Shown: one piece after another, positions 43,873 to 51,374 of the stretch
How positions within the stretch are numbered: position 1 is the stretch's first letter
Layout of the letters: the number at the start of each line of letters is the position of its first letter
Assembly: GCF_001512295.1 (NCBI RefSeq)
Contig: NZ_LNUP01000002.1
Location: 124,001 to 188,000 of the forward strand
Length of the DNA stretch: 64,000 bases
Reading direction: 5' to 3'
Origin: Pseudomonas sp. EpS/L25
GTDB taxonomy: Bacteria > Pseudomonadota > Gammaproteobacteria > Pseudomonadales > Pseudomonadaceae
Program-made: the position numbers and the translations under genes
Notes under the pieces: generated by a model
Seen by the model: only the letters and a program-made list of their open reading frames with translations
Databases searched by the model: none
What the model was told of the DNA's origin: nothing

Positions 43873-44625
43873 TCAGGCGCTGGCCTGGTCGGCGAAGCTC
43901 AGCGCCTGCTGCAGCGCCGCCTGGCCCACCACCTCGCCGATCACCAGGATCGCCGGGCTCTTCAGCTGGAAGAGGGCGGCGTCCACCTGCAAGTCCTGCA
44001 GCGTCGAACGGCATTCGCGCTGGCTGGGCAGGGAGGCGTTCTCGATCATGGCCACCGGAGTGGTCAGCGCCAGGCCACCTTCCAACAGGCCCTGCTGGAT
44101 TTCGACCAGGCGAGCGACGCCCATGTAGACCACCAGGGTGGTACCGGTCGCCGCCAGGGCGCTCCAGTTGGGCGCGCTGTCGTCCTGGGTGTGGGCGGTG
44201 ACCAGGGTCACGCCGCGGGCCACGCCCCTCAGGGTCAGAGAGATGCCGCAAGCGGTGGCACCGGCGAGGCCGGCGGTGATGCCGTTGACGATCTCGCTGT
44301 GCACGCCACGGGCGGCCAGCCATTCGGCTTCCTCGCCGGCGCGGCCGAAGATGCAGGGATCACCGCCCTTGAGCCGGGCCACGCAGCGACCCTGGCGGGC
44401 GTAACGCAGCATCAGGCGATGGATGAAGGCCTGGGGCGTGGAACGGCAGCCGCCGCGCTTGCCCACGCGAATCACCCGGGCACCGGGGCAGTGTTCGAGG
44501 ACAGCCGGATTGACCAGGTCGTCGATCATCACCACCTCGGCCTCGCCCAGGGCGCGCACGGCCTTGAGGGTGAGCAGCTCGGGATCGCCGGGGCCGGCGC
44601 CGATCAACCAGACTTTCCCGCTCAT
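43873..44625 (-). CDS. cobA: Uroporphyrinogen-III C-methyltransferase CobA
   Basis: SAM-dependent enzyme that converts uroporphyrinogen III to precorrin-2, supplying siroheme for nitrite and sulfite reductases. The protein has 250 residues, the length of the monofunctional SUMT. Motifs: VWLIGAGPGDPELLTLKA, DDLVNPAVL, GKRGG, RLKGGDPCIFGRAGEE, GITAGLAGATACGISLTLR and VVYMGV. It lies behind its own sigma-54 promoter and a NasR-type attenuator, tying it to nitrate assimilation. In other pseudomonads it usually follows nirB-nirD and the nitrate reductase gene. Confidence 0.95.
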   Translation of the reverse strand: MSGKVWLIGAGPGDPELLTLKAVRALGEAEVVMIDDLVNPAVLEHCPGARVIRVGKRGGCRSTPQAFIHRLMLRYARQGRCVARLKGGDPCIFGRAGEEAEWLAARGVHSEIVNGITAGLAGATACGISLTLRGVARGVTLVTAHTQDDSAPNWSALAATGTTLVVYMGVARLVEIQQGLLEGGLALTTPVAMIENASLPSQRECRSTLQDLQVDAALFQLKSPAILVIGEVVGQAALQQALSFADQASA

Positions 44626-44662: not shown

Positions 44663-44706
44663 AAAAAAAAGGCGTCCCGCTGCATGCAGCTGGGACGCCT
44701 TTGTCC
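44663..44706 (-). promoter_or_regulatory. NasR-type (ANTAR) attenuator in the cobA leader
   Basis: Read on the minus strand: a small hairpin GGAC-[AAAGGC]-GTCC (44693-44706) whose six-base loop has the A1/G4 pattern of ANTAR targets. It overlaps an intrinsic terminator with stem GGCGTCCC / GGGACGCC (44671-44699, inner GCTGCATGCAGC) followed by eight Ts (44663-44670). The hexaloop's right arm is the terminator's left arm, so the two are mutually exclusive. A second AAAGGCGCTCC copy lies just upstream and may form the first ANTAR hairpin. Confidence 0.75.
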
Positions 44707-44756
44707 TGGAGCGCCTTTCCTCGCCGTTGAAGAAAGACCTATGTTGTCTGGGGGTT

Positions 44757-44773
44757 TGCAGGCTTCGTGCCAG
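44757..44773 (-). promoter_or_regulatory. Sigma-54 promoter of cobA
   Basis: Minus strand CTGGCACGAAGCCTGCA matches the -24/-12 consensus (TGGCAC-N5-YTGCA) with exact spacing. Transcription should start near 44746, giving a leader of about 120 nt that contains the attenuator. Nitrogen control by NtrC is expected, but I saw no clear NtrC site. Confidence 0.8.
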
Positions 44774-44824
44774 TTGCCCGTGCGAGTCGAACCGCGGCTT
44801 CGCGTGCTGTGCGGGCAGCAAGAT

Positions 44825-44866: not shown

Positions 44867-45667
44867 TCAGGCCACGGCGCCGGGGTGGCCGTGCTTCTCG
44901 TAGAGGAAGCTCAGCACCGCGTGGCGATAGCCGTTGTAGCGCGGATCGTCCACCAGGGTGATGCGATCCCGCGGCCGCGGCAGGTCGATGGTGAGGATCT
45001 CGCCGATGGTGGCCGCCGGGCCGTTGGTCATCATCACGATGCGATCCGAGAGCAGCACCGCCTCGTCCACGTCATGGGTGATCATCATGACGGTGTTGCG
45101 CAGTTCGCTCTGGATGCGCATCACCTCGTCCTGCAAATGCGCCCGAGTGAGGGCGTCCAGGGCGCCGAAGGGCTCGTCCAGCAGCAGCACCTTGGGCTCC
45201 ATGGCCAGGGCGCGGGCGATGCCGACCCGCTGCTTCATGCCACCGGAAATCTCGCTGGGCCGCTTGTGCAGGGCATGGCTCATGTTGACCATTTCCAGGT
45301 TGTGCAGCGTCCAGGCCTGGCGCTCTGCCTTGCTCTTGGTGCCCTTGAACACCTTGTCCACCGCCAGGGCGACGTTCTCGTAGACCGTCAGCCAGGGCAG
45401 CAGCGAGTGGTTCTGGAACACCAGACTGCGCTCCGGGCCGGGACCGCGGACCTCGCGGTTCTCCAGCAGGATCGAGCCTGAGGTGGGTTCGATCAGGCCG
45501 GCGACGATGTTGAGCACCGTCGACTTGCCGCAGCCGGAGTGGCCGATGATGGAAATGTACTCGCCGCGTTCGATCTTGAGGTTGACGTCGCGCAGCACCG
45601 TGGAGGTCATGCCGTTGCGGGTGAAGCTCTTGTCGACCTGCTCGATGCTGAGATAAGGCTGGGCCAT
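44867..45667 (-). CDS. nrtC: Nitrate ABC importer ATPase (NrtC/NasD type)
   Basis: ATPase subunit of the nitrate/nitrite importer, 266 residues. Motifs: GHSGCGKST, VFQNHSLLPWLTVYENVAL, signature EISGGMKQRVGIARALA, LLLDEPFGALD and ITHDVDEA. The start ATG at 45667 follows GAGGAA at 7 nt; the longer open frame upstream is a shadow of nrtB. It is the short single-domain form, without the regulatory NrtA-like domain of cyanobacterial NrtC. Last gene of nrtABC. Confidence 0.93.
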   Translation of the reverse strand: MAQPYLSIEQVDKSFTRNGMTSTVLRDVNLKIERGEYISIIGHSGCGKSTVLNIVAGLIEPTSGSILLENREVRGPGPERSLVFQNHSLLPWLTVYENVALAVDKVFKGTKSKAERQAWTLHNLEMVNMSHALHKRPSEISGGMKQRVGIARALAMEPKVLLLDEPFGALDALTRAHLQDEVMRIQSELRNTVMMITHDVDEAVLLSDRIVMMTNGPAATIGEILTIDLPRPRDRITLVDDPRYNGYRHAVLSFLYEKHGHPGAVA

Positions 45668-45678
45668 GGGGAATTCCT

Positions 45679-46524
45679 CTAGTTCGCGGTGCCGCGGGTG
45701 ACCAGGCGGCCGATGAGGGCCACCAGCCGGTCGAGCAGGAAGCCGATGACGCCCACGTAGACCAGCGCCAGGATGATGTCGCTGATGCGCGAGGCGTTCC
45801 AGGCATCCCAGATGAAGAAGCCGATGCCCACGCCACCGATCAGCATCTCGGCGGCGATGATGGCCAGCCACGACAGACCGACGCCGATCCGCAGGCCGGA
45901 GAAGATGTAGGGCGCCGCCGCTGGCAGCATGATCTTCTGGAAGTATTCCCAGCCGTTCAGGCGCAGGACCCGTGCCACGTTGCGGTAATCCTCGGGGATG
46001 TTGCGGATGCCTACCGAGGTATTGATGATGATTGGCCAGATGGCGGTGATGAAGATGACGAACAGCGCCGAGGGGTGGCTGTCCTTGAAGCCGGCCAGGG
46101 ACAGCGGCAGCCAGGCCAGCGGCGGCACGGTGCGCAGTACCTGGAACAGCGGGTCGAGGCCGCGCATGGCCCAGGCCCACTGGCCCACCAGCACGCCCAG
46201 GGCGATGCCGGCCACGGCGGCCATCAGGTAGCCGTAGGCGACGCGCTCGAGGCTGGCCAGCAGTTGCCAGGCCATGCCCACGTCGTTGCCGCCGTTGTCG
46301 TAGAAGGGCTGGGTGATCAGCTCCCAGGTGTCGCTGACCACCTGGCTCGGGGGCGGCAGGGCCGCACCGGGGCGACTGCACAACAGTTGCCAGACGATCA
46401 GCAGCACGGCGCCCACCACCAGCGGGGGCAGGCCGTTGCGCAGCACCTGCTGGCCGAAGCGACGCAGACGGGTGTGCGGGCGAAAGGTCGCGAGGGCCTT
46501 GGGCGGCCGGGTGTGGGCGTTCAT
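45679..46524 (-). CDS. nrtB: Nitrate ABC importer permease (NrtB/NasE type)
   Basis: Inner-membrane permease of 281 residues with about six helices. The EAA-type loop reads EDYRNVARVLRLNGWEYFQKIMLPAAAPYIFSGLRIGVG and LRTVPPLAWLPLSLAGF is typical of nitrate/sulfonate permeases. ATG 46524 has GGAG 8 nt upstream; an in-frame GTG 9 nt earlier would overlap that site. It sits 11 nt before nrtC. Confidence 0.92.
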   Translation of the reverse strand: MNAHTRPPKALATFRPHTRLRRFGQQVLRNGLPPLVVGAVLLIVWQLLCSRPGAALPPPSQVVSDTWELITQPFYDNGGNDVGMAWQLLASLERVAYGYLMAAVAGIALGVLVGQWAWAMRGLDPLFQVLRTVPPLAWLPLSLAGFKDSHPSALFVIFITAIWPIIINTSVGIRNIPEDYRNVARVLRLNGWEYFQKIMLPAAAPYIFSGLRIGVGLSWLAIIAAEMLIGGVGIGFFIWDAWNASRISDIILALVYVGVIGFLLDRLVALIGRLVTRGTAN

Positions 46525-46552
46525 GGGCGGCACTCCTAGGGGGATGGGGACG

Positions 46553-47878
46553 TCAGGCCTTGAGCGTCAGGCTGGCGAGATAGGCCTTGGGGTCGGCGGG
46601 ATCGAACACCTTGCCGTCGAAGAAGGTTTCCTTGCCGCGCGAGTTGCCGCTGGGGATGTCGCCGGCCGGGACGCCGATGGCCGCCGCCGCTTCACGCCAG
46701 AGATCGGAGCGGTTGACCTTGGCGATCAGGCCCTGGGCATCCAGGTCACCGGGCAGATAGCCCCAACGCTGGTTCTCGGTGATGAACCAGAGGTCGTGGC
46801 TCTGGTAGGGGAAGGAGGCATGTTCGTTCCAGAACTTCATCAGGTGCGGACTGTTCTGTACCACCCGGCCGGTGCCGTAGTCGAAGGTGCCCTGCAGGCG
46901 GCCGACCACGTCCTCGGCGGGCGCGCCGATCCAGCGACGCTTGGCGCAGATCTCGGCGACCTTCGCCTTGTTTGCCGCCACGTCGCAGTATTGCTGGGCT
47001 TCCAGCACCGCCTTGAGCAGCGCCACGGTAGCCTTGGGATTGGCCTGGACGTAGTCGCCGCGCAGGGCCAGGGCCTTTTCCGGGTGATTGGCCCAGAGCT
47101 CGCCGGTGGTCAGGGCGCTGTAGCCGATGTTCTGCTTGATCAGCTGGGCGTTCCAGGGCTCGCCGACGCAGAAGGTGTCCATGTTGCCCACCTTCATGTT
47201 GGCCACCATCTGCGCCGGGGGCACCACCATGGTGGTGATGTCCTTGTTCGGATCGATGCCGTTGGCCGCCATCCAATAGCGAATCCAGAGGTCGTGGGTG
47301 CCGCCGGGGAAGGTCATGGCGGCCGAGGTCTTCTTGCCGCTGGCCTGGCGTGCGGCCAGGGCGCTCTTGAAGCCGCTGGCGTCGAGGCCGATATTCTGTT
47401 CCCTGTAGTCGTTGGACAGGGAGATCCCCTGGCCGTCGACGTTCAGCCGTGCCAGCAGCGCCATGGGCAATGGCTGGCCATTGGGCGTGATCTTGCCCGC
47501 GGCCAACTGATAGACCATGGGCGTGAGGATGTGCGCGCCGTCGATGCCATTGGCCGCCGAGCCCAGCACCAGGTTGTCGCGGGTGGTGCCCCAGGAAGAC
47601 TGCTTGAGCACCTCCACCTCGGTCATGCCGTACTTGGCGAACAGCCCCAGCTCATCGGCGACGAACAGTGGTGCGGCATCGGTGAGGGCGATGAAGCCAA
47701 GCTTGGCCTTGGGCGTCTCCACGGCATCGCTGCCGGCTGCCCAGGCGGCGGACCTCAGGCCAGCCGGCAGCAGCGTGAGCGCGGCGCCAGCGCCCAGTAC
47801 GCCGAGCGACTGCTTGAGAAAACTGCGGCGGGGGAGTCCGCGACCGGCCTGGTCATCGTTACGGGAGCTGTCGTCCAT
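46553..47878 (-). CDS. nrtA: Nitrate-binding periplasmic protein (NrtA/NasF type), Tat signal
   Basis: Substrate receptor of the nitrate importer, 441 residues. The N-terminus carries a twin-arginine signal, RRSFLK at residues 17-22, followed by a hydrophobic stretch ending AAWA. The mature part shows KAKLGFIALTDAAPLFVADELGLFAKYGM, SWGTTRDNLVLG, NVDGQGISLSN, FCVGEPWNAQLI and KRRWIGAPAEDVVGRLQG, matching NrtA/NasF. The start ATG at 47878 lies just below the leader terminator; the longer upstream frame would run through that leader and is rejected. First gene of nrtABC. Confidence 0.94.
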   Translation of the reverse strand: MDDSSRNDDQAGRGLPRRSFLKQSLGVLGAGAALTLLPAGLRSAAWAAGSDAVETPKAKLGFIALTDAAPLFVADELGLFAKYGMTEVEVLKQSSWGTTRDNLVLGSAANGIDGAHILTPMVYQLAAGKITPNGQPLPMALLARLNVDGQGISLSNDYREQNIGLDASGFKSALAARQASGKKTSAAMTFPGGTHDLWIRYWMAANGIDPNKDITTMVVPPAQMVANMKVGNMDTFCVGEPWNAQLIKQNIGYSALTTGELWANHPEKALALRGDYVQANPKATVALLKAVLEAQQYCDVAANKAKVAEICAKRRWIGAPAEDVVGRLQGTFDYGTGRVVQNSPHLMKFWNEHASFPYQSHDLWFITENQRWGYLPGDLDAQGLIAKVNRSDLWREAAAAIGVPAGDIPSGNSRGKETFFDGKVFDPADPKAYLASLTLKA

Positions 47879-47905
47879 CGTCCTATCCTTATTTCTCGGG
47901 CACAA

Positions 47906-47961
47906 AAAAAGGCATCCACTCTCGGCAGGCCTTGGCTGCGAGCGTGGACACCTTCGTCCGG
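47906..47961 (-). promoter_or_regulatory. NasR-type (ANTAR) attenuator in the nrtA leader
   Basis: Minus strand: hairpin GGAC-[GAAGGT]-GTCC (47948-47961) overlaps an intrinsic terminator with arms 47941-47954 and 47913-47926 (13 of 14 positions paired) followed by seven Ts (47906-47912). The same arm sharing is seen in the cobA leader. A further hairpin, GAGCGC-CTG-GCGCTC, lies at the predicted 5' end of the RNA (47976-47990). The loop here starts with G rather than the usual A. Confidence 0.72.
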
Positions 47962-48000
47962 GGATTGCTGTGGGAGCGCCAGGCGCTCGACAGGACTTTT

Positions 48001-48017
48001 TGCAGGGACTGTGCCAA
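48001..48017 (-). promoter_or_regulatory. Sigma-54 promoter of nrtABC
   Basis: Minus strand TTGGCACAGTCCCTGCA fits the -24/-12 consensus with exact spacing. Transcription should start near 47990, immediately before the 5' hairpin, giving a leader of about 112 nt. Confidence 0.82.
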
Positions 48018-48165
48018 GCCCGAAATCCCGGCCGATCCACACCTTTTACCGGTCTCGGGCGCACAGTCGCGGGGCGTTCCGGTGCCTGGGTGCGCCCTGG
48101 CGGCGCATGGAGGGTGCTGGATTGGCTAGTGCTCGAAGATGGCCCGCGCTGAATGCTGAATAATG

Positions 48166-49410
48166 CTAGAGCTCCTGCCCGAGCAACTGCCGGACCAGCT
48201 CGGGCAACGGTCGGCCGCTGCGCATCGCCAGTTGCTGCAGATGCTGGTGGGCGTCTGCTTCCGGCAGCTGCAGCTGCTGCATGAGTTGTTGCTTGGCTCG
48301 CTCCAGCAGCTTGCGCTCGACCAGGGAACGGCGGCTTTCCTGGAGTTCCGCCTCCACCTCGTGCAGGCGGCGGGTCTGCTCGTGCAGCAACTCGAGGATG
48401 CCGGGCTGGCCTTCGCCCGGCCGGGCTTCAGCCAGCGGATTGGCGGTCAGGCTGAACAGCAGCGGCGTGCTCGGCTCACGGTCGAGTTCGGCCAGGCGCC
48501 GGGACAGCTTGCGATGGCTGTCCAGGTCCGCCTGGGCCTGGGCGATGCTCTTCGCACAGCGCGCGCGGAGTTCCAGTACCAGGTGCTGGGCGACGGCCTG
48601 CATGGCGTCCAGGCGGCGGGTATTGAGTTCGAACCAGAGTTCGGCCAGCGCCGGCTCCACCTGGGCACTCGCCGAGGTGCGCTGGGCGACGCCACGCAGC
48701 CGTTCGATCTGCTGCCGCGAAGCGCAATCCTGCACCTCGTGCCAGAGCGCCAGGGCCTGGGGATCGGCATGATCGAGGAAGCCGGCGAAGCAACGGGCCT
48801 GGCCACTGTCCAGGTCGTCGAGACGGGCCAGCAGGACGACATCGAAATGACCTTGGGCGAAGCCGACCACTCCGGTCGCCCGGGCCTGGCCCGCCAGTTC
48901 CTTGCCCTGCATGAAGTTGAACAGCGCCACCAGGGTTCGGCTGAGACCAGGGTCGCTCGCCGTGTCGGCAGCCTCGAAGATGACCGCCAGCAAGCCGCCG
49001 ATCAGGTGCGAGAAGGCCGTGGTGGCCTCTTCCATCCCCAGGCGCCGGTCGAGAATGCCGCGCCTCAGGCCGGGCAGGCCATCGAGCAGATGCAGGACGC
49101 AGGCGATACGGTTGAGCAGGCGCGGGCGATCCTGGGCCACGCTGGCGTCGAGGGTGTCCAGGCATTCGCGCAGGCGCGTCTCGCTGCAGCGCGTCGTCGC
49201 CGAATGCTGTTGCAGGGCGCTGCAATAGCGATCGCTGCCCGTCCCCAGCAGGATATTGCTGAAACCGCGTTCACGTTGCAGGTCATGCACCAGAGCGCTG
49301 GCGTCCTCCACCAGCTCGCAGGTCAGGGCAAGGCCCTCCAGTTGCTGCAGTTCGCAACGGCGGGCCGCAAGCATGAAACGCAGGGCAGGGGGCATCTGGC
49401 GATCGGACAT
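48166..49410 (-). CDS. nasR: Nitrate-responsive transcription antiterminator NasR (NIT + ANTAR)
   Basis: RNA-binding antiterminator of about 414 residues. An N-terminal NIT sensor domain (about 30-290; ELVEDASALVHDLQRERGFSN, FFxG-like segments, LFNFMQGKELAGQARA) binds nitrate/nitrite. A coiled helix (LLHEQTRRLHEVEAELQESRRSLVERKLLERAKQQLMQQ) leads to the C-terminal ANTAR RNA-binding domain (LQLPEADAHQHLQQLAMRSGRPLPELVRQLL). ATG 49410 is chosen; an in-frame TTG at 49440 is possible. It lies directly upstream of nrtABC, the usual place for the regulator of the leader attenuators seen here. Confidence 0.92.
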   Translation of the reverse strand: MSDRQMPPALRFMLAARRCELQQLEGLALTCELVEDASALVHDLQRERGFSNILLGTGSDRYCSALQQHSATTRCSETRLRECLDTLDASVAQDRPRLLNRIACVLHLLDGLPGLRRGILDRRLGMEEATTAFSHLIGGLLAVIFEAADTASDPGLSRTLVALFNFMQGKELAGQARATGVVGFAQGHFDVVLLARLDDLDSGQARCFAGFLDHADPQALALWHEVQDCASRQQIERLRGVAQRTSASAQVEPALAELWFELNTRRLDAMQAVAQHLVLELRARCAKSIAQAQADLDSHRKLSRRLAELDREPSTPLLFSLTANPLAEARPGEGQPGILELLHEQTRRLHEVEAELQESRRSLVERKLLERAKQQLMQQLQLPEADAHQHLQQLAMRSGRPLPELVRQLLGQEL

Positions 49411-49477
49411 GGGGCGAGACTCGGACAGGAGGCTGGCCAATGGCCTGCAAAAGCTGCTCCAATCCGCGCTTTCTCAG

Positions 49478-49615: not shown

Positions 49616-51286
49616 TCAGTGGCGATAGAGCCACAGCAGCACCATTACCAGGTTGCCGAGCAGCGACAGGGCGGCGACCACCTGCCAGGTGCGCAGTGGA
49701 TCGCGGTGCAGCAGCGGTAGGGCGCGGACGGCGGGTTGCCGCTCGCCCTGTTCCAGTCGCAGCAGGGCCTCCTCGGCGGTCTCGAAGCGATCCCTGGGGT
49801 CGACCGCCACGGCGCGCTGCAGCCAGTCCTCCAGCCACGCCGGCGCATCGGGGCGGCGCCGCAGCACGCTGGCGGGGGTGGCGAAACGCGGTCGCTGGAA
49901 GGGCTCGACTTCGCCATAGGGATAGCTGCCGGTGAGCAGCTCGTAGAGCGTGACGCCGGCGGCGTAGAGATCCTGGGCCGGACTCGGGATGGCACCTTCG
50001 AAGGACTCGGGGGCTCGGTAGCTCGGCGTGCCGGGAGTGTCCTGCAGGTCCTGGGACAGCTGGGGGCAGTAGGCCAGGCCGAAGTCCAGCAGGCGCAGTT
50101 CGCCATCCTGACCACGGTGCAGGTTGTCCGGCTTGATGTCGCGGTGGAGGATGTTGCGCCTGTGCAACTGACCGAGGGCGCGCAAGAGGCGGGAGGCTAC
50201 GTCCAGCCAGTCGGCCAGCGCCAGGGGGCCTTCGCTGCGCAGTTGCTGCGCCAGGGTGCGGCCGGAATATTCCCGCTGCACGAAGTAGAGGTGGGCTCGT
50301 CGCGGCAGCGGATGCACCTCGACGAAGGCGCGTCCGGCAACGCGGCGCAGGAACCATTCCTCCATCAGCAGGGCATGGCCGGCGAGGGTGTCGTGCTGGA
50401 GGTTGGCTGGCAGCGTCTTGAGCAGCCAGGGGCGACCGTTCTCGTCCTGGACCCGGTAGAGCAGCGACTGGCGCGACTCGCCGAGCCGCTCCAGCACCGT
50501 CCAGCCTTCGAAGCGCTGGCCGGGCTTGAGGGCCGGCAGCGGCGGCCAGGTGTCCGCGCTGGCCAGGGTGTCGGCCAGGGACACGTCGGGCAGCCGGTCG
50601 ACGCGCACCAGCAAGGCGCTGGCATTGTCCTGGCCACCGGCATGCAGGGCCCCGGCCACCAGGGCCTGGGCGGTGGCGTCCGGGTCGCTCACGCCATCGG
50701 CGAGGATGCGCCTCATGCTGTCCTCGCCCAGGGCCGCCCAGACGCCATCGCTCACCAGCAGCAGGGTCTCGCCGGCTTCGAGTTCGCCTTCGCGGAAGTC
50801 CACTACCAGGTGAGTCTCCAGCCCCAGGGCCCGGGTCAGCACATGCTGCATGCCGGTCTGCTGCCAGACGTGGTCGACGGTGAGGCAGGTCAGCTTGCCG
50901 CCGTGCCAGCGATAGGCGCGGCAATCGCCAACATGGGCCAAGGTAAAACGCCGTCCGCGGATCACCAGGGCGGTCAGGGTGGTCAGCAGCGGCTGGCCGT
51001 TGCCGGCGGCCTGCAACCAGCGATTCTGCGCCAGCAGCAGCCGTTCCAGGGCCTGGGCCACCGGCCAGGTTTCCGGAGTGGAATAGTAATCCTGGGCCAG
51101 GGCCTGCAGGGTGGCGCGGGCGGCCAGGCCACCGTCCGGGCAGCCACTGACGCCATCGGCCAGGGCGAACAGATGCCCCTTGGTCGCCGCCAGGGCCGCA
51201 CTGGGCTGGACGCTGCGCAGGGCATCCTGGTTTTCCTTGCGCGGGCCGGTCGCGGTGGCTTCGGCGGTGACGAGTTCTAGGGGCAT
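49616..51286 (-). CDS. PP2C phosphatase - Ser/Thr kinase fusion, membrane-anchored
   Basis: Bifunctional signalling protein of 556 residues. The N-terminal PP2C domain (about 1-240) shows GPRKENQDA, ADGVSGCPDGGLAA, HVGDCRAYR, SDGVWAAL and GGQDNAS. The C-terminal Hanks kinase domain (about 255-520) has Lys in LLKTLP (about 288), catalytic HRDIKPDN (about 382), LLDFGLAYC and a GTPSYRAPE activation segment. One membrane helix closes the protein (WQVVAALSLLGNLVMVLLWLY). Such fusions lie beside nirB and the nitrate reductase gene in pseudomonads (PA1782-like). Its target is unknown. The stop is in the element's CTGAG flank. Confidence 0.92.
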   Translation of the reverse strand: MPLELVTAEATATGPRKENQDALRSVQPSAALAATKGHLFALADGVSGCPDGGLAARATLQALAQDYYSTPETWPVAQALERLLLAQNRWLQAAGNGQPLLTTLTALVIRGRRFTLAHVGDCRAYRWHGGKLTCLTVDHVWQQTGMQHVLTRALGLETHLVVDFREGELEAGETLLLVSDGVWAALGEDSMRRILADGVSDPDATAQALVAGALHAGGQDNASALLVRVDRLPDVSLADTLASADTWPPLPALKPGQRFEGWTVLERLGESRQSLLYRVQDENGRPWLLKTLPANLQHDTLAGHALLMEEWFLRRVAGRAFVEVHPLPRRAHLYFVQREYSGRTLAQQLRSEGPLALADWLDVASRLLRALGQLHRRNILHRDIKPDNLHRGQDGELRLLDFGLAYCPQLSQDLQDTPGTPSYRAPESFEGAIPSPAQDLYAAGVTLYELLTGSYPYGEVEPFQRPRFATPASVLRRRPDAPAWLEDWLQRAVAVDPRDRFETAEEALLRLEQGERQPAVRALPLLHRDPLRTWQVVAALSLLGNLVMVLLWLYRH

Positions 51287-51374
51287 GGACGAGGCGCCAG
51301 GGCAGGGGTAGGCAGGCCGATGCAAAAGCGATACCCACTACCCGGGCGCCCAGCCGCCCGTCCGCTCGGCGCCA

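Follow-up and report, generated by a model that had tools for sequence, protein, structure and literature searches.

A putative single-hexaloop NasR attenuator before nrtABC in Pseudomonadaceae

The closest described relative of the locus studied here is nasR-nasFEDCBA of Klebsiella oxytoca, where a NIT-ANTAR regulator is likewise encoded beside a nitrate-assimilation operon, the first genes of which we take to encode a transporter. The nasF operon is reported to be under Ntr activation (PMC5424462) and the second hairpin of its leader, P2, to overlap an intrinsic terminator (PMC3369936), two features that recur at our locus. According to the latter source, Klebsiella NasR needs the stem of the first hairpin, P1, together with A1 and G4 of the P1 loop, while SELEX with NasR is reported to have yielded two hairpins with C:G closing pairs, A1 and G4 (PMC7496416). 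The eut leaders read by EutV, which in Enterococcus are under two-component control, share with our leader the mutual exclusion of P2 and terminator as well as G4. They differ in having two hexaloops at a set spacing (PMC3369931, PMC8934654). From the EutV structure a single hexaloop is reported to be the minimal binding site, yet antitermination required both (PMC8934654).

Two Rfam families are also comparable. The narK RNA (RF03032) has a sigma-54 box and hexaloop hairpins in its consensus, as our leader does, but includes a P1; the family resembles a dual-hexaloop ANTAR leader complete with its -24/-12 promoter. The NalA leader of Pseudomonas nirBD, which we take to be the family P11 (RF00625), combines a -24/-12 promoter, a P2 hexaloop and a terminator in the same compact manner, although the P11 consensus has a first hexaloop hairpin. 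NalA is reported to follow the same two-layer logic, with control by NtrC/sigma-54 and, as a difference from the system proposed here, by NasS-NasT (PMC12830290).

The joining of sigma-54/NtrC promoters to ANTAR antitermination is thus already known. What is new is a P1-less, single-hexaloop class of leader; in the titles and abstract openings that we went through, P1-less NasR leaders from Pseudomonadaceae were not described.

The nrtABC control region

The window, that is, the whole 64 kb stretch of DNA analysed, contains the following features.

48166..49440, minus strand: nasR, encoding 424 aa with a NIT domain (Pfam, 159.2 bits) and an ANTAR RNA-binding domain (44.4 bits)
48091..48107, minus strand: NtrC-type dyad TGCGCC-N5-GGCGCA, its centre some 110 bp ahead of the predicted +1, 12/12 to the consensus
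48001..48017, minus strand: sigma-54 -24/-12 promoter TTGGCACAGTCCCTGCA, between nasR and nrtA, from sequence
47990, minus strand: predicted transcription start, 12 nt past the -12 C, placed by promoter spacing
47974..47988, minus strand: 5' hairpin GAGCGC-CTG-GCGCTC, without a hexaloop, at the place of P1, from fold energy
47969..47972, minus strand: YACA box, here CACA, after the 5' hairpin and before P2, from conservation in family leaders
47946..47959, minus strand: P2 antiterminator hairpin GGAC-GAAGGT-GTCC, four pairs, loop with G1 and G4, -5.5 kcal/mol
47904..47955, minus strand: intrinsic terminator, stem 47908-47955 and T7 tail 47904-47910, from fold energy and covariation
46553..47878, minus strand: nrtA, nitrate-binding protein (Pfam NMT1_2, E 2.4e-100), ATG at 47878
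45679..46533, minus strand: nrtB, ABC permease (Pfam BPD_transp_1)
44867..45700, start approximate, minus strand: nrtC, ABC ATPase (Pfam ABC_tran)
44671..44784, minus strand: sigma-54/ANTAR leader of cobA, the second of its kind here, carrying the two hexaloops AACGGC and AAAGGC
43873..44625, minus strand: cobA, tetrapyrrole methylase (Pfam TP_methylase), behind nrtABC

By eye, the nrtA product has a twin-arginine motif. Upstream of nasR lies a gene for a fusion of a PP2C phosphatase with a Ser-Thr kinase (window 49616-51325, minus strand).

We confirmed that the nrtA control region is real and of a known kind. The promoter has GG at -24 and GC at -12 with 10 bp between them, and both TGGCAC and the -12 GC are invariant in 27 distinct nrtA leaders of the family. 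Among 198 Pseudomonadaceae genomes 35 have nrtA, and in 34 of those 35 nasR directly precedes it in the same orientation; leaders were obtained from 29 of the 35, in six genera, and 27 of these leaders are distinct. Outside the set are four unfetched genomes (G168, G192, G156, G189), one with no P2 upstream of nrtA (G080) and one with other sequence there (G182). This other sequence, possibly an insertion element, parts nrtA (L073) from a leader that still lies beside nasR (L039). One same-genus nrtA was matched as two overlapping pieces (G003:C1:847334-848655), a pattern that points to a frameshift or to an error in the sequence.

The composite of a promoter box, a C:G-closed hexaloop with at least four pairs and a T-run occurs at two places in the window, before nrtA and before cobA. 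A scan for sigma-70-type promoters and terminators gave no promoters and listed neither ANTAR terminator. Elsewhere in the genome, genes that by eye are narK-like (L082), nasA-like and nirB-like (L004) are each preceded by a sigma-54/ANTAR leader, and the leaders of the divergent pair nasA and nirB lie back-to-back.

Going by the NtrC consensus, we take the upstream dyad to be a predicted NtrC site. It stands at the same position in all eight same-genus genomes with nasR, with 12/12 matches in seven and 11/12 in one. The arms are kept while the spacer varies (two different spacers), and single-base shuffles give P from 0 to 0.007 in this genus. In the other genera no dyad was found at a shared place: their best matches reach 9 to 11 of 12, three of them with shuffle P <=0.02 at differing distances and the others unremarkable.

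Much of a preliminary description of this region stands. The consensus -24/-12 promoter that it placed at 48001-48017 is there, on the minus strand; its leader of about 112 nt agrees with a +1 near 47990 and the nrtA ATG; and the gene it named nasR, immediately upstream, is a NIT and ANTAR protein by Pfam. Its terminator with seven Ts does compete with a hexaloop hairpin for the same arm, and the loop (GAAGGT) begins with G, off the ANTAR consensus, as it had said. The hairpin had been put at 47948-47961 and really lies two bases away, at 47946-47959. It had overlooked the lack of a P1 hexaloop, the NtrC-type dyad, the presence of NasT as another ANTAR protein of the genome, and the similar but fuller leader of cobA.

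P2, the terminator and the first base of the loop

The fold energy of the terminator is -28.4 kcal/mol (z -4.76). Its 5' arm consists of the P2 loop and the P2 3' arm, and the two structures are therefore mutually exclusive. Across the 27 distinct leaders parts of the terminator are invariant, 86.9% of its cells are paired and 9 of its 20 pairs have changed on both sides, giving a covariation of 0.259; shuffles give 0.155 and slid partners 0.05-0.12. All 108 cells of the P2 stem are paired, but the stem scarcely varies, three of its four pairs being invariant, and is therefore uninformative by covariation; in a 28-nt piece its -5.5 kcal/mol equals that of shuffles (z -0.01). P2 has the C:G closing pair, the G4 (27/27) and the overlap with the terminator.

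At loop position 1, G is found in all eight genus members, and the A1 of the dual-hexaloop motif in the other 19 of the 27. In the EutV structure G4 is reported to be the sole base-specific contact, and A1 is suggested to prevent cross-loop pairing (PMC8934654). A 1-6 cross-loop pair is possible in 19/27 P2 loops; its computed probability is 0.50 and 0.96 in two G1 loops, 0.76 in an A1-U6 loop and 0 in AACGGC. The idea that A1 is present solely to prevent such pairing was not upheld, as A1-U6 loops can pair as well. G1 still pairs, as G-U, with the U tract of the terminator.

When named genomes were scanned for leaders with a G-first loop, 73 stretches came up; as only G-first loops were sought, this yields no frequency relative to A. 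Fifty are leader-like with a terminator, including three kept by hand (L113, L129, L151), and the 23 matches without a T-run were set aside as probable chance. Six of the 50 are from Pseudomonas of the P. oryzihabitans group, all P1-less and before nrtA (one of these, read out of frame, was assigned from its leader), and the other 44 are largely from Comamonadaceae nirB. By a stricter criterion P1 is present in 41/50, a few of them doubtful (e.g. L138, L141). Because G-first loops recur in other lineages, G1 is, going by the genomes compared, a recurrent variant and not private to this locus. A single ANTAR match was found in 12 of the 16 G-first genomes examined, six of the 16 being MAGs by title. 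Two Acidovorax-type leaders (L116, L148) have a G-first P2 and no canonical P1, with one ANTAR match per genome.

The place of P1

As P1 we counted a hairpin between promoter and P2 with a C:G closing pair, A1, G4 and at least three pairs. Not one of the 27 distinct nrtA leaders of Pseudomonadaceae has such a hairpin (shuffling predicts 0.29). Outside the family 16 of 19 NasR-linked leaders have it (0.67 by shuffling), and so do all four other leaders found in this genome, those of cobA, nirB, nasA and narK (0.11 by shuffling). The P1 of the ANTAR dual-hexaloop RNA (Ramesh 2012), a hexaloop with A1 and G4, is by this count absent from the nrtA leader. The 19 outside leaders, which include nrtA leaders proper (e.g. 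L042), came from 31 genomes with a NasR match; in the remaining 12 no leader with box and P2 was recognised. The three that miss P1 are L049, with a hexaloop on a mismatched stem, L216, with U-G closing (both by eye), and L207. Another genome with NasR outside the family (G250) has two P2-bearing leaders without P1 by eye, which were left uncounted: one at C1:927475-927545 and one in which P2 and a T-run follow a poor box (L050). P1-less leaders are therefore not confined to Pseudomonadaceae.

When the P1 criterion was relaxed to any closing pair and three Watson-Crick pairs, one stray appeared between promoter and P2 among 29 leaders (G085). A hidden P1 with G-U closing, TGTCG[AGCGCC]TGGCG, was rejected at -2.1 kcal/mol and a probability of 8e-7; by eye it cannot be drawn in G006, G010, G008, G009 or G003. 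The preliminary description had taken the leader for an ordinary ANTAR attenuator save for a single unusual base. This part of it does not hold, P1 being missing both from this leader and from those of nrtA in the other Pseudomonadaceae examined. The best reading of these sequences is that the nrtA leader is a single-hexaloop NasR attenuator, belonging to a P1-less class in Pseudomonadaceae.

For the 5' hairpin that stands in P1's place the fold energy is -9.4 kcal/mol when the stretch between +1 and P2 is folded (p 0.03 against shuffles) and -9.9 kcal/mol in a 28-nt piece (z -1.42). All eight genus members have it, with variable loops and one compensatory change of a C-G to an A-U pair. Across the 27 leaders the best fold starts at most 3 bases from the predicted +1, and in most of them it is a hairpin, with a loop of 3 to more than 10 nt in which we saw no common bases. 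The shuffle p is <=0.05 in 18 of the 27 distinct leaders and 0.14 to 0.36 in four family leaders; in two (G113, G101) the best 5' fold is wider and encloses YACA.

In all but one of the 27 leaders (26/27) a YACA box precedes P2 by 13-17 nt, a count for which the range of distances was chosen post hoc and the genomes are related. At 13-20 nt before P2 it occurs in 0/26 other family leaders, and in nirB leaders it stands 18 nt (G024) and 20 nt (G018) before P2. We regard the association as a lead, short of proof.

The same hairpin could be a real P1 that the NasR of Pseudomonadaceae reads differently, by its stem, by YACA or by another loop, so that two hairpins would remain. It does lie near +1, as P1 does in L043 and L044 (by eye), it is stable in most leaders by the shuffles above, and YACA follows it in the 26 of 27. 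A loop of such variable length without common bases speaks against this, as do the four leaders that fold much like their shuffles and the two folds that take in YACA, and we consider an altered P1 somewhat unlikely.

NasR, NasT and the proposed control

The sole solved-structure match of the nasR product, in which NIT is joined to ANTAR, is Klebsiella NasR (4akk, E 4e-44). In 15 pairs from six of the eight genus genomes dN/dS is 0.12-0.23 over the protein and 0.04 to 0.34 over its ANTAR part; the protein is therefore under constraint. Aligned with the RNA contacts of EutV (one unreadable row, L043, was left out), the genus NasR keeps R142, K143, K149, E160 and M172. K147 is R, Y164 is H and R168 is Q, each of which is also seen in other ANTAR rows, while N173 is R or H and R175 is G. 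R177, a contact to the loop backbone, is P or A in 8/8 genus members, and V stands at an Ala that is kept by all other readable rows but one (L048, G). We rejected G1 as a NasR-specific code or as tracking the R177 change: Comamonadaceae G1 genomes keep K or R at this position in 16/17 ANTAR loci by eye, the equivalent being readable in 17 of 22 ANTAR loci from G1 genomes.

These substitutions, along with G1 and the absence of P1, would be expected of a decaying attenuator, one that lost P1, changed A1 and its NasR contacts, and by now would, with or without nitrate, mainly terminate or leak. However, the P1-less nrtA leaders of six genera keep the promoter, the P2 stem and a terminator with compensating changes, nasR has the dN/dS just given, and G-first P2 loops recur in other lineages. 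Decay is very unlikely.

NasR is present in 8 of 13 genus genomes searched and 43/198 of the family, and NasT in 147/198. By Pfam this genome has two ANTAR proteins, NasR and NasT, the latter beside a NasS homologue. We scanned 42 genomes for leaders, drawing on 41 family genomes for the surroundings of nasR or nasT and adding two loci of our own genome. At least one leader was obtained from 24 of the 42, making 34 leaders after removal of a spurious row (G052, L258); known leaders were missed in G158 (by the box pattern) and G123 (by the terminator rule), so that a missing row does not mean absence. Eight of the leaders either adjoin nasR or come from a genome with no NasT match: six of nrtA, which overlap with the set of 27, and those of nirB in G018 and G024. 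None of the eight has P1. It is found in 24 of the other 26, and by eye the two exceptions (G027, G032) have the loop on an imperfect stem. All of these 26 lie within about 12 kb of nasT save one, the nirB leader of this genome. Where a genome has NasT and no NasR match, P1 is present in 18/20 leaders. In two genomes with both proteins (G101, G188) the nrtA leader is P1-less and the nirB leaders are P1-bearing, as is narK in G188. The nirB leader of G123 also lacks P1; all three P1-less nirB leaders (G018, G024, G123) come from genomes with NasR and no NasT match.

Could NasT antiterminate nrtABC, with NasR merely a neighbour that has other targets? The genome does encode NasS-NasT, NasT is the commoner protein in the family, and a Pseudomonas leader, NalA, is reported to be under NasT control (PMC12830290). 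On the other hand, nrtA lies behind nasR in nearly every genome that has it, and P1, which the leaders of NasT-only genomes nearly always carry, is missing from the nrtA leader here. Among ten family genomes tested, two (G024, G158) have nrtA leaders of the same build with NasR as the sole detected ANTAR protein. G048 (78% complete) also has nrtA with NasR as its sole detected ANTAR protein, and G080 has nrtA with neither an ANTAR match nor a P2 upstream. NasR is therefore favoured as partner. Taken together, the sequences point to NasR as the partner of the nrtA leader, and NasT could still act in this genome; that NasT is the antiterminator of nrtABC in place of NasR is unlikely.

We think it probable that nrtABC is controlled in two stages, by NtrC/sigma-54 at initiation and by NasR antitermination on a single-hexaloop leader. 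Under nitrogen limitation, phosphorylated NtrC on the upstream dyad would activate sigma-54 polymerase at the -24/-12 promoter. By default the leader is computed to fold into the terminator, and transcription would end before nrtA. With nitrate or nitrite, if the Klebsiella nasF model applies, the NIT domain would release the ANTAR domains of NasR, which would hold P2; the held P2 would take the 5' arm of the terminator and polymerase would read through. NasR would be offered one ANTAR hexaloop, with the hexaloop-less 5' hairpin and YACA replacing P1. This is unlike nasF, which needs its P1; here the hairpin in P1's place has no hexaloop, P2 is G-first and YACA precedes P2. The two-layer control of the preliminary description agrees with the sequence, with how it is conserved and with two systems already characterised, while its canonical attenuator does not.

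A single-hexaloop mechanism has support in G-first P2 loops with terminators, which exist in genomes with one ordinary ANTAR protein. Against it, one hexaloop may be too weak: NasR is reported to bind P2 alone at ~12 uM and both hairpins at 1 uM (PMC7496416). We also count against it the requirement of Klebsiella NasR for P1 and of EutV for both hexaloops, the R177 and Ala changes in the genus NasR, the possible 1-6 pair in many P2 loops, the lack of a shared-place NtrC dyad in other genera, the several leaders in which the 5' hairpin is no better than shuffles, and the P1-less leaders outside the family (L049, L207, L216 and, by eye, G250).

More tentatively, and with slightly less than even confidence, we suggest a division of labour in Pseudomonadaceae. 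NasT would have retained dual-hexaloop leaders and NasR would read single-hexaloop ones with a hexaloop-less hairpin and YACA, often in the same cell; this difference would keep the circuits apart, and the P1 hexaloop would be dispensable in nature. If so, homologous RNA-binding regulators would be separated by RNA architecture. Natural single-hexaloop NasR leaders, some of them in NasR-only genomes, also make the question of one or two hexaloops directly testable. The nirB leader of our own genome (L004 1508-1690, plus strand) has P1 (AACGGC), then a second hairpin and after it, as NasR-type leaders do, TTACAG, which stands nine bases ahead of P2; this leader may respond to both inputs.

Searches with dual-hexaloop models may miss targets of this kind. 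The window has no Rfam match at gathering scores, and RF00625 and RF03032 both miss the nrtA leader at threshold. Against P11 it scores 19.3 bits (gathering 70), and we rejected its membership; against the narK RNA (gathering 43.2) it has no match at E <=10. The cobA leader is the better relative of P11/NalA in the window and the top P11 match of the genome, at 51.5 bits (E 7.3e-10 in the genome), below the gathering score. The nasA (L004 1212-1284) and narK (L082) leaders of this genome match RF03032 at 53.3 and 58.9 bits, respectively.
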